Origin: Acidimicrobiales bacterium
GTDB lineage: Bacteria; Actinomycetota; Acidimicrobiia; Acidimicrobiales; RAAP-2
DNA length: 64,000 nt
Direction of reading: 5' to 3'
NCBI GenBank assembly: GCA_025351385.1
Contig: JANXWA010000020.1
Coordinates: forward strand, 1 to 64,000
The notes under the pieces are model-generated. The model searched no databases. It saw only the letters and a program-made list of their open reading frames with translations, and had not been told where the DNA came from. A program made the translations under genes and the position numbers. Position 1 is the stretch's first letter, and every line of letters begins with the position of its first letter. Of this stretch, positions 809 through 7,560 are shown one piece after another.

Positions 809-3178
809 ATGGCGCGACCACCCCGTTCCCTCTGGCCCGCCCTCGCCCTCATCGTCGCGTTGGTCGGCGTCGGAGTTCCGTCTTCGGCCGTCGCCGTCGA
901 AGCGCGCGTCTCGGTCGCCGGTTCGTCACCGATTCCGGCCGCCGACACCGTCGTGCACCAATCGATCTCGACCACCTTCGACGTCACGTTGCGCGCGAGA
1001 GATGACACCGCTCTCACGACGTTCATCGCCGGTCTGTCGGACCCCGCATCGAGGAACTACCACCGGTACCTCACCACGTTGCAATTCGCCCGTCGCTTCG
1101 GCGCCACCCAGACGACCGTGGCCGCGGTGCGCGCCTACTTCGCCGGCTTCGGACTTCGAGTCGCCAGCATCAGCAAGGGACGCGTCGTACTGCACCTGAG
1201 CGGCTCGACCACCGACATCGCTCGCGCCTTCGCCACCGCGATCGCGACGGTCCGACGGCCCGACGGGATCGTGGCCGCGCAGTTCACCCGACCGGCCACC
1301 CTGCCCGCGGCGATCGCGCGGGTCGTCGCGGGCGTGGCCGGCCTCTCGACGGTGACGCCGCCCACACCGAACCTCGTGAAGCCTCGCGCGAGACCCGCGG
1401 TGACCACCCCGACGACGTGTCCTTCGGCCGGTAGCCAGAGCACCTCCACGCCGAACTCACTGGGCGGCTACACCGCGATCCAGCAGGCGCAGGTCTACGG
1501 GCTCGCCACCGCCTGGGCGAGCGGTCACAATGGCGCCGGTCAGACAATCGCCGCCTACGAGCTGAGCGCCTACGACCCGGCCGACCTCGCGATTTTCTTC
1601 AGCTGCTACGGCCTCAATCCGTCGGTCACCGCCCGATCGGTCGATGGCGGGCCGATCGGCGCCTACGACAACGAGCCGACCCTCGACGTCGAGGAGGCCG
1701 CCGTGCTCGCTCCGGGCGCCGCCATCCAGATCTATCAGGGTCCGAACACCTCCTCGGGCCCGACCGACGTGTACCAGGCGATCGCTGACGACAACTCCGC
1801 GACGATCGTCACGAGCTCGTGGGGGACGTGCGAATCCGACCCCAGTGGCGACGTCGCGGCCGAACAGCCGATCTTCCAGCAGATGGCGGCCCAGGGCCAG
1901 ACCGTCGTCTCGGCGGCCGGGGACAACGGGTCATCGGACTGTCACGGCATCACCAACAACAACCTCGCCGTGGACGACCCGTCCTCCCAGCCCTACGTCA
2001 CTGGCGTGGGAGGGCTCACCGTCTCGAACATCAACCCCCTGGCCCAGACCGTCTGGAACGACGGTCCGGGTTCGACCCAGGCCGGAGCGAGCGGCGGCGG
2101 GCGCTCGGCCCTCTGGTCACGTCCCTCGTGGCAGGTGGCACCCGGCATCAACCCCGGTGAGACCAAACGCCTCGTGCCCGACGTCTCGACGATGGGCGAC
2201 CCCAACACGGGTTTCATTGAGTACTTCACCGGCACGGCCTCGGGGGTCTGCCGCCACGGCTGCTCGGGGCTCGGCTGGGGGCCCATCGGCGGCACGTCGA
2301 TCGGTGCGCCGATCGTCTCGGCGCTCGTCGCCACCGCGGCCCAGACCTGCGGCGTCAGCCGCCTCGGCTTCATCAACCCCTCGCTCTACGCAATGGCGTC
2401 GACCGGCTACGTCGACGTGACGACGGGCGGCAACGACCTCTTCGGCGTCGGGAGCTACAGCGCCGGCCCGGGCTACGACATGGCGTCGGGACTGGGCAGC
2501 CCCAAGCCCGGGGCGTTCATGGCCGGACTGTGCCCGACGACCTTCGACGCCACCAAGAGCTCCTTCGCGACGTCCTCGACCACCGCGACGGTGAAGAGCC
2601 CCGGGGCAATCGTCACAGCGACGCTGCACGACTCCAACAACCTGGCGCTCGCGAACGCACTCGTCTCGGTCGGCGCCACCGCCTCGGGCAGCGGTGCGAA
2701 CGGCCAGGTCCTCATCGACGGGGACCTCTCGAGCGTCACGACGAACGGCAGCGCGGCGTACTCGGTGACGACCGACGGTACCGGCACAGCATCGTTCACC
2801 GTCTCGACCGACACCCCCGGGCCGGTGGTCGTCACCGTCAGCTACGCGTCCAAGGCCATCTACTCCACGACCATCATCTTCGCGTCAGCCGCCACGCCAA
2901 CGAAGCCCGGCCGGGCGGGCATCGCGAAACTGACGGCGATCGTCGGGGGCTTCGTGCTCCACGTGAAACGCCCACCGAGCAACGGGGGCAGCGCCGTCAC
3001 CTCGTATCAGTACTCACTCAACGGAGGATCGCGTTGGAGCTCGCTCGCTCGGAACACCATGGCGATCCGGGTCGTCAATCTGGTGAAGGGCCATCGGTAC
3101 CGGGTCATCGTGCGTGCGCTGAACGCCGTCGGTGCGGGCGCGTCGTCAGCCCCGACGTCGATTGTCACGCGAACGTAA
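809..3178 (+). CDS. Secreted S53 (sedolisin/kumamolisin) serine-carboxyl peptidase
   Basis: The 789-residue protein has a signal peptide (residues 1-30), a pro-kumamolisin activation domain (about 45-145) and an S53 catalytic domain (about 215-575). The catalytic set is visible: E289 and D293 in NEPTLDVEEA, the oxyanion Asp D372 in AAGDNG, and the nucleophile S497 in GGTSIGAP. The calcium-site region follows near 535-560. After the catalytic core come a bacterial Ig-like domain (about 590-690) and a fibronectin III-like domain (about 705-789). S53 enzymes mature by removing their own propeptide and work in acid, so this is probably an extracellular scavenging protease. The gene stands alone with its own promoter; a Thr-linker secreted protein follows. 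Confidence 0.95.
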   Translation: MARPPRSLWPALALIVALVGVGVPSSAVAVEARVSVAGSSPIPAADTVVHQSISTTFDVTLRARDDTALTTFIAGLSDPASRNYHRYLTTLQFARRFGATQTTVAAVRAYFAGFGLRVASISKGRVVLHLSGSTTDIARAFATAIATVRRPDGIVAAQFTRPATLPAAIARVVAGVAGLSTVTPPTPNLVKPRARPAVTTPTTCPSAGSQSTSTPNSLGGYTAIQQAQVYGLATAWASGHNGAGQTIAAYELSAYDPADLAIFFSCYGLNPSVTARSVDGGPIGAYDNEPTLDVEEAAVLAPGAAIQIYQGPNTSSGPTDVYQAIADDNSATIVTSSWGTCESDPSGDVAAEQPIFQQMAAQGQTVVSAAGDNGSSDCHGITNNNLAVDDPSSQPYVTGVGGLTVSNINPLAQTVWNDGPGSTQAGASGGGRSALWSRPSWQVAPGINPGETKRLVPDVSTMGDPNTGFIEYFTGTASGVCRHGCSGLGWGPIGGTSIGAPIVSALVATAAQTCGVSRLGFINPSLYAMASTGYVDVTTGGNDLFGVGSYSAGPGYDMASGLGSPKPGAFMAGLCPTTFDATKSSFATSSTTATVKSPGAIVTATLHDSNNLALANALVSVGATASGSGANGQVLIDGDLSSVTTNGSAAYSVTTDGTGTASFTVSTDTPGPVVVTVSYASKAIYSTTIIFASAATPTKPGRAGIAKLTAIVGGFVLHVKRPPSNGGSAVTSYQYSLNGGSRWSSLARNTMAIRVVNLVKGHRYRVIVRALNAVGAGASSAPTSIVTRT

Positions 3179-5534: not shown

Positions 5535-5540
5535 TAACCT
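5535..5540 (+). promoter_or_regulatory. -10 box of the coiled-coil gene
   Basis: TAACCT lies six bases before ATG 5547, overlapping the end of the previous gene by only a few bases. Confidence 0.55.
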
Positions 5541-5546
5541 GTCGCC

Positions 5547-5804
5547 ATGAGCGAAACCACCGACTCCGGCCATGACTGGTCCCAGGACCTGAAGAGCCGG
5601 GTGAAGCAGTTCACCCAACCGATCGTCGACTCCCTCGACTCGCGCCTGCGCGAACAGGTCGACAAGCGCGTGGACCAACGGGTCGACGAGCAGATGGATG
5701 AGAAGATCGACGCGGTCTTAAAGGACCGGCTGTCCGTCGTGGAGCGTGCGATCGCCGACCTCGACCGGGCCCTGCGCGAGCTCGAGGATCGCCTGAAGCC
5801 CTAG
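5547..5804 (+). CDS. Small coiled-coil protein, function unknown
   Basis: The 85-residue protein is highly charged, with heptad-like patterning (REQVDKRVDQRVDEQMDEKI) over residues 28-80, so it should form a long helical coiled coil. It has no cysteine and no membrane segment. It starts 15 bases after the previous stop but has its own -10 box, so it need not be co-transcribed. I do not recognise a family. Its stop overlaps by three bases the stop of the tiny membrane-protein gene on the other strand. Confidence 0.7.
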   Translation: MSETTDSGHDWSQDLKSRVKQFTQPIVDSLDSRLREQVDKRVDQRVDEQMDEKIDAVLKDRLSVVERAIADLDRALRELEDRLKP

Positions 5805-5926
5805 CCCGCCTCCGGGCCCGATTGGCCGGCACGGCGCTCGCGGTCGCGATGGATCGCCCAGCGCATCGTCAGCACGACCAGCACCAACGTGGCGAGGACG
5901 AAGAACGAGAAGACCGCGATGAACAC
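5801..5926 (-). CDS. 41-residue single-span membrane protein
   Basis: Reading from GTG 5926 gives MFIAVFSFFVLATLVLVVL followed by TMRWAIHRDRERRAGQSG and a short tail. This is one hydrophobic helix (residues 2-21) and then a basic segment, so an N-out, C-in small membrane protein is predicted by the positive-inside rule. An in-frame stop lies four codons upstream, so it cannot extend further. TAGCGT sits six bases before the GTG, the same arrangement as at many larger genes here. No ribosome-binding site is seen. Function is unknown; small proteins of this shape often bind a larger membrane partner. Confidence 0.6.
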   Translation of the reverse strand: MFIAVFSFFVLATLVLVVLTMRWAIHRDRERRAGQSGPEAG

Positions 5927-5932
5927 GCCGCC

Positions 5933-5938
5933 ACGCTA
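5933..5938 (-). promoter_or_regulatory. -10 box of the 41-residue membrane protein gene
   Basis: On the minus strand TAGCGT is followed by GGCGGC and the GTG start. Confidence 0.55.
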
Positions 5939-5971
5939 GGTCGTGTCACAGGGCAGCGCAAGAGTATCGCC

Positions 5972-6760
5972 ATGACCACGTTGCTCGACTCTCCGATGAA
6001 CGTGGTGGACGCGCTGCGCGGCGATCGGGCCACTCGACCTAGCGTCGACCGCTCCAGCGCCGCCGGGCTGCGAGCGTCGCTCGAGGACGGACTGTTCGAA
6101 GTGCTCGGCACCGCGCGTCCGACGTCACCGATCGTCGTGCGCTCGGCCTCCCTGCGTTTGAGCCCGCGAACAGCGGAACTCACGTCGTCGGCGCACGGTC
6201 GCCTCCGCGGCGTCCTCGTCAACCACGTCCTTCGCCTCTGGAGCGTCGGGACGACCATCGAGAACGCCTTCGACGACGCGCTGAGCGCGTGGCGCGCGAC
6301 CGACGACGAGTCGATCCGTCTGGTGGACACGATGGACATCGACGAGCGGGCGCGACTCGCCACCGACGTCGCGGCGCACGGCGTCACGCTGACGCGGTCC
6401 CTGGGTCCCATGCCCGGTCGGTGGATGCCGCGCAGCTCGGTGCGGGCCAACCAGTCCCTGGCCGGCGGACACGTCCTGCTGCGCGACGTCGTGGACCTCA
6501 TGATCGGGACCGATGACCGCGACGTCGCCTCGATCGTCCTCTTCGACCTCACCACCGCGCCGCTCGGTGAGGGTGTGGAGCGAGCAATGCGCTACCACGC
6601 GCTCGTCCAGACCCTGCGCACCTCGGCCGTGCCACTGCGCACGTCGGCGTTCTCGACTGCGACCGGCGAGCTGTGGGTCCGCGACGTCGACCACGAGATG
6701 TTGCGGCGCAGCGTCGGCGAGGTCCTCGCCTGCGTCGCCGACCAGTGGGGCCGGCGATGA
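5972..6760 (+). CDS. Hypothetical protein, first gene of a two-gene operon
   Basis: The 262-residue soluble protein is rich in Arg, Ala and Val and has no signal peptide or membrane segment. I recognise no family. Its last codons overlap the next gene by four bases (ATGA), so the two products are probably made together and may form one complex. ATG 5972 is chosen because AAGAGT, a poor -10 match, lies six bases upstream; the reading frame remains open upstream as far as 5822, but that part has no family-like or coding-like composition. Confidence 0.7.
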   Translation: MTTLLDSPMNVVDALRGDRATRPSVDRSSAAGLRASLEDGLFEVLGTARPTSPIVVRSASLRLSPRTAELTSSAHGRLRGVLVNHVLRLWSVGTTIENAFDDALSAWRATDDESIRLVDTMDIDERARLATDVAAHGVTLTRSLGPMPGRWMPRSSVRANQSLAGGHVLLRDVVDLMIGTDDRDVASIVLFDLTTAPLGEGVERAMRYHALVQTLRTSAVPLRTSAFSTATGELWVRDVDHEMLRRSVGEVLACVADQWGRR

Positions 6761-7560
6761 CGACCCTGGCGCACCGGCGACTTGCCTCGGGACAGATCGA
6801 CCGACTCGTCGCCGAGGCACCGGACCGGCCCGCCAGGCTCACCGACGACCACCGCAGGTCGCTGAGCGCACGCTTTCGCGCGGTGGCCACCCCCGGCCAC
6901 CGCCGTCTCGACGCGTGGAACGTCGAGCAGGCCGGACGGGCCGCCAACGGCTTCCACTGGTCGCCGGCGATCGCGCGACGGGCGCTGGGCAACGGCGCGC
7001 TTCGCCGCCCGTCCTCGCCGGGCACCTCGATCACCGACGCGGTGCGCGACGAGGTGGCCGAACAGCTACTGCGCGCCGCCGCGGGCTACGCCCGGAACGG
7101 CTCGATGGCGAGCTGGCTCGCCTCCTCGCCGGACCCGGTGGTCGGCCTCGTCACCGCCGAGGCCGTCAACTGGGCGACCCAGCTGAGCGAGATCACGGCC
7201 GACCTTCGCTCAACGTGGACCATGGCGCCGAGCGACGCCTACTACGACGTCGCGACGGCCCGAGTGACGCTGCGCGCGCGGCGCGATCTGGTCATCGCGC
7301 GCGACGGGGAGCGCGTCATCGTGCGGGTCCGCTCCGGAGCCCCGGGAAAGAGCGCCGGACCAGGGCTTCGAGCCGACCTGACCACCGAGACGCTGGCCCA
7401 TCCGGCGGGCATTGCGCCCGTTCGCTTCATTGGCCTGTGGCCCGAGGCCGGAGTCTGCCTGGCCGTCGACGGCTCGATGGACGACCTGCGGGCCGGGGCC
7501 CGTGACCTCGTGCGCACCGCCGTCGCGCAACGTCGACGGGGACTGCCGATCGCGGCCTAA
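6757..7560 (+). CDS. Hypothetical protein, possible degenerate PD-(D/E)XK nuclease-like fold
   Basis: The 267-residue protein is translationally coupled to the preceding gene through ATGA. Its C-terminal third (about 165-250) reads RRDLVIARDGERVIVRVRSG, then GPGLRADLTTETLAHP and RFIGLWPEAG. This spacing recalls the D..V...(D/E)xK core of RecB-type nucleases but with Arg in place of the usual Lys, so catalysis is doubtful. The resemblance is a weak inference and the protein may be something else. No metal-binding or membrane motif is visible. Confidence 0.65.
   Translation: MTTLAHRRLASGQIDRLVAEAPDRPARLTDDHRRSLSARFRAVATPGHRRLDAWNVEQAGRAANGFHWSPAIARRALGNGALRRPSSPGTSITDAVRDEVAEQLLRAAAGYARNGSMASWLASSPDPVVGLVTAEAVNWATQLSEITADLRSTWTMAPSDAYYDVATARVTLRARRDLVIARDGERVIVRVRSGAPGKSAGPGLRADLTTETLAHPAGIAPVRFIGLWPEAGVCLAVDGSMDDLRAGARDLVRTAVAQRRRGLPIAA

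Follow-up and report, generated by a model that had tools for sequence, protein, structure and literature searches.

A conserved 41-codon gene with a putative leaderless promoter in Acidimicrobiales and its association with patatin genes in related families

In mycobacteria, leaderless small ORFs, including ones that are RTGA-coupled, are common and usually unannotated (PMC4633059). The small gene described here resembles these mycobacterial genes in its apparently leaderless RTG start, its product of fewer than 50 aa and in being missed by annotation, and the RTGA overlap with a downstream gene recurs in its related families (PMC4633059). It differs from the mycobacterial set in that the Acidimicrobiales gene is known by conservation alone and belongs to a defined family of single-helix proteins in which fusion to an enzyme occurs and, unlike the RTGA-coupled ORFs, the gene in the window (the whole stretch of 64,000 nucleotides that was analysed) stands alone and is convergent to its neighbour (PMC4633059). 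A second point of comparison is provided by the CydX-type small subunits (PMC4325964), which likewise measure about 40 aa and consist of one helix with a short polar tail. Their genes lie directly beside an enzyme gene, whereas the small gene does so only in related families; moreover, no sequence relation to CydX is shown, the would-be partner is a soluble-type patatin or thioesterase, and most of the window's genus lacks this patatin (PMC4325964). Finally, the enzyme found downstream of or fused to the small protein in related families belongs to PF01734 together with the RssA/YchK-type patatin-like phospholipases, but the small protein itself is not a patatin and corresponds to the N-terminal membrane helix fused in loci L218 and L219.

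The short minus-strand frame of 41 codons, which the initial annotation had called from the letters of the window, was found as claimed between the coiled-coil gene and a divergent gene, here termed div (Table 1). Its product has 41 aa: MFIAVFSFFVLATLVLVVLTMRWAIHRDRERRAGQSGPEAG. The interval given earlier ran on to position 5938; positions 5927-5938 are the -10 element TAGCGT and six spacer bases and lie outside the ORF. Read in frame, the upstream sequence is TAG CGT GGC GGC GTG, so that the TAG of the -10 element supplies the blocking stop that had been noted and leaves GTG 5926 as the sole possible RTG start. At the other end, the reported overlap with the coiled-coil stop is borne out by a shared CTAG. 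Of 58 relatives, 32 keep this overlap in the same register and 42 have an overlap of some kind.

Table 1 Features of the small-gene locus (positions in the window)
Feature	Position	Strand	Description
Small gene	5801..5926	minus	41 codons, GTG start, TAG stop; single-pass membrane protein (predicted), helix residues 2-35, basic C-terminal tail (R22..R32)
CTAG	5801..5804	both strands	Stop codons of small gene and convergent coiled-coil gene
Coiled-coil gene	5547..5804	plus	85 aa, convergent to small gene
-10 element TAGCGT	5933..5938	minus	Six bases 5' of GTG; contains upstream in-frame stop
TGTGACA/TGTCACA near-palindrome	5944..5950	unstranded	Centre of divergent promoter; candidate operator
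Probable -35 element TTGCGC	5956..5961	minus	17-bp spacer; conserved less than -10
div -10-like AAGAGT	5960-5965	plus	Six bases 5' of div ATG
div	5972..6760	plus	262 aa, Cas4/RecB-like PD-(D/E)XK fold, degenerate active site

The window contains 300 ORFs of 25-60 aa, of which the small ORF has the highest 19-residue hydropathy (2.94; next 1.93), and its product is predicted to form one helix (mean pLDDT 87.5). Across 65 homologues the net charge is 0 or -1 at the N-terminus, whereas that of the tail beyond the helix ranges from +2 to +6 and is mostly +4, an asymmetry which by the positive-inside rule points to a single-pass N-out/C-in topology with the tail in the cytosol. Hydropathy, predicted helix and charge pattern in the homologues therefore agree with the clean hydrophobic helix and basic tail described initially. 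The conserved positions cluster on one helix face (conservation moment, p=0.008 by shuffling), the pattern to be expected if the helix packs against a partner or against itself.

The peptide was matched in 36 of 37 genomes of the same genus (E values 1e-22 to 7e-5); in the one exception, G002, the coiled-coil gene is missing too, which would fit an assembly gap. While a contig search with the single div protein gave no match, a div alignment retrieved 73 loci, mostly from uncultured Acidimicrobiaceae and Acidimicrobiales MAGs, many of them from peat. The small gene is present and divergent to the same neighbour, div, at all 67 loci with enough upstream sequence; the six without it have at most 41 nt upstream. 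The comparison genomes are almost all MAGs, with mechanical gene calls in the relatives. Over 23 disjoint pairs the small gene has a pN/pS of 0.20, its differences fall on codon positions 80/27/227 (227 of 334 at position 3), and the frame contains no in-frame stop across 66 loci; judged by these substitution patterns, it is under purifying selection. The gene is single copy, and residues F2, F6, F9 and R22 of its product are invariant. Conservation of the reading frame in close relatives had been named initially as the point on which the gene would stand or fall; these relatives retain the frame, and with it the start, the promoter and the stop overlap. From the comparison of these genomes, we regard the 41-codon gene as genuine. 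A plus-strand frame does run open from TTG 5822 into div, and the pN/pS of one antisense frame is low as well (0.33), a value that probably reflects wobble positions mirrored from the small gene. That the ORF is nevertheless a chance one, and the conserved signal an N-terminal extension of div on the other strand, is scarcely credible, given that stops interrupt this extension in several relatives but the small frame in none of the 66 loci, and that the conserved features, namely hydrophobic pattern, start codon and promoter, are those of the minus strand.

According to the initial annotation, the gene is headed by the same TAGCGT-N6-GTG arrangement as larger genes. This exact form occurs in the window at the small gene alone, and what other genes share with it is the general TAnnnT-N6-RTG plan (for example at 797-811 and 5535-5549); the intermediate form TAGCST-N6-RTG was observed three times against 0.34 expected. 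Counted window-wide, TAnnnT-N6-RTG occurs 20 times (7.3 expected), so that leaderless genes look common in this genome. In the relatives, the T, A and T of the small-gene TAnnnT are invariant and their distance from the RTG is N6 in 62 of 66 loci, N7 in three and N8 in one; locus L153, where the frame is open far upstream and the start misplaced, is left out of the promoter counts. Because the -10 element lies six bases from the start and leaves no room for a leader, this arrangement implies a leaderless mRNA and hence a leaderless promoter for the small gene. The 45-bp region between the small gene and div (positions 5927-5971) would be a bidirectional leaderless promoter for both genes, an element absent from the initial annotation, and has a central TGTSACA box. 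A TGTGACA/TGTCACA-like box was found in 65 of 66 loci, 4-6 nt before the small-gene -10 element, and the start-to-start distance between small gene and div is 44-46 nt, again in 65 of 66. The combination box-TAnnnT-N6-RTG has a single site genome-wide, and this uniqueness together with the conserved spacing suggests that the box is a dedicated, putative operator.

A profile search for the small protein placed the family in seven Acidimicrobiales families (f1, f9, f31, f33, f39, f43 and f45; f and g denote family- and genus-level groups of the comparison set, L a locus and G a genome). Profile searches covering 296 class-level and 396 phylum-level genomes yielded no convincing member outside the order, where the matches were weak and for the most part truncated. 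This order-wide reach, like the coupling to patatin described below, goes beyond the initial annotation. Searches of Pfam, NCBIfam, PADLOC and PDB sequences returned no match above threshold for the small protein, the best Pfam match being VirB3 (15.8 bits against a cut-off of 23.9), and literature searches for the family or for a small patatin partner gave nothing relevant. The family is therefore so far without a name, although its type of gene is already known. Its size and hydrophobicity are toxin-like, and one relative has a sub-threshold PepG1 match (E 0.096). We nevertheless consider a type I toxin-antitoxin toxin very improbable: the gene is single copy, has been retained by vertical descent in essentially every species of the genus and is fused to an enzyme in relatives, and the window protein has no match in NCBIfam or PADLOC. 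A role in a defence system was also rejected, as the PADLOC matches were only to generic phospholipase and PD-(D/E)XK models and near-universal vertical retention argues against it.

The best Foldseek matches of div were the Cas4-family ACE1, AdnA and Dna2. Its homologues in f45 and f9 carry an ExK-type motif, EVK or DVK, together with four cysteines in a C-terminal pattern; div of the window's genus shows DxT at this motif and has lost the cysteines, which makes it a probable pseudo-nuclease. The second gene after div (6757-7560, plus strand) has no Pfam family and keeps its place next to div in several families. At the loci examined, the coiled-coil gene is confined to the window's genus and g27 of the same family, both of them lineages that lack the patatin, and it stands tail-to-tail with the small gene where, on the other strand, the patatin sits in other families. 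Further away, a protease-like gene (809-3178, plus strand) carries a pro-kumamolisin activation domain (PF09286) and weak fn3/Big_1 C-terminal domains.

The divergent arrangement with div at all 67 loci and also in f45 and f9, the constant 44-46 nt between the two starts, the common box in 65 of 66 loci, and the persistence of div as neighbour in the window's genus when the patatin went would fit a co-regulated unit in which the peptide partners div and places or inhibits this Cas4/RecB-like protein at the membrane. However, the divergent gene in f43 is RadA-like (by eye), div is not the neighbour in f31 and f33, no fusion of small gene and div was seen, and a common promoter region is no proof of physical partnership. 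We therefore hold such a partnership to be unlikely.

In f9, f39, f43, f45 and g156, another genus of f1 with the small gene and patatin pair, the same-strand gene directly downstream of the small gene is a patatin (PF01734). This patatin is RssA-like, with an NCBIfam PRK10279 match below cut-off. Of 12 small gene/patatin junctions, eight allow a 4-nt overlap (ATGA, GTGA or TTGA) and one more has TGATG. At two loci, L218 from an Acidimicrobiales MAG and L219 from genome G462, which belongs to another genus of the same family, helix and patatin form one in-frame protein. The small gene of f31 follows an acyl-CoA thioesterase II gene (TesB), with a TGATG-type overlap in some loci. Upstream of the patatins at four other loci, no ORF carrying the small-protein motif was found, and in f33 and part of f39 the neighbours of the small gene are unrelated to lipids (a phosphoribosyltransferase; an ion-channel-like ORF, by eye). 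The window's own genome has no patatin of any kind, only two of 23 genomes examined of its genus have any, and a search with the specific patatin found none in nine genomes of g1, g26 and g27. The simplest history is an ancestral pair of small gene and patatin that became fused in some lineages, with the window's lineage losing the patatin and keeping the helix. Since the peptide is conserved in the window's genus although the patatin has mostly been lost there, it would in that genus have another partner or act alone.

The latter possibility, that the peptide works by itself as a membrane regulator or stress peptide, with the patatin as a later passenger in some lineages, would account for the retention of the small gene without patatin in g1, g26 and g27, for its presence in f33 without adjacent div or patatin, and for a single-copy gene with its own promoter. 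It appears doubtful in view of the precise RTGA-type overlap and the two patatin fusions, which suggest a physical or stoichiometric relation. We favour, at a probability of about one half, that the small protein tethers a cytosolic acyl-ester hydrolase to the membrane or serves as its small subunit. In this model, the small gene would be transcribed from its own leaderless promoter to give a single-pass inner-membrane protein with its N-terminus outside and its basic C-tail in the cytosol. The client in several related families would be the RssA-like patatin, translationally coupled downstream or fused to the helix, and contact would be made through the conserved helix face (F2/V5/F9/A12/L16) and the RRDR tail. 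In the window's genus, we infer that the peptide holds another partner in place of the patatin. Gene coupling and fusion to the patatin speak for association, and physical tethering is a further step that we infer from them. Against the tether reading stands the fact that the proposed client is mostly absent in the window's genus, where the finding lies. An extended form of the tether reading seems unlikely to us, namely that a portable 30-residue helix recruits different cytosolic acyl-hydrolases (patatin, TesB) by lineage, outlives its original client and shares its control with a decayed Cas4-like protein through one bidirectional leaderless promoter of 45 bp that has its own operator.

Taken from sequence alone and strongly confirmed by the genomes of relatives, the find offers a testable function for an unnamed small protein, namely to tether lipid hydrolases to the membrane. 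It adds what appears to be a well-supported leaderless small-protein case in Acidimicrobiales, and the window's genus would represent a natural experiment in which the enzyme was lost and the tether kept under selection.
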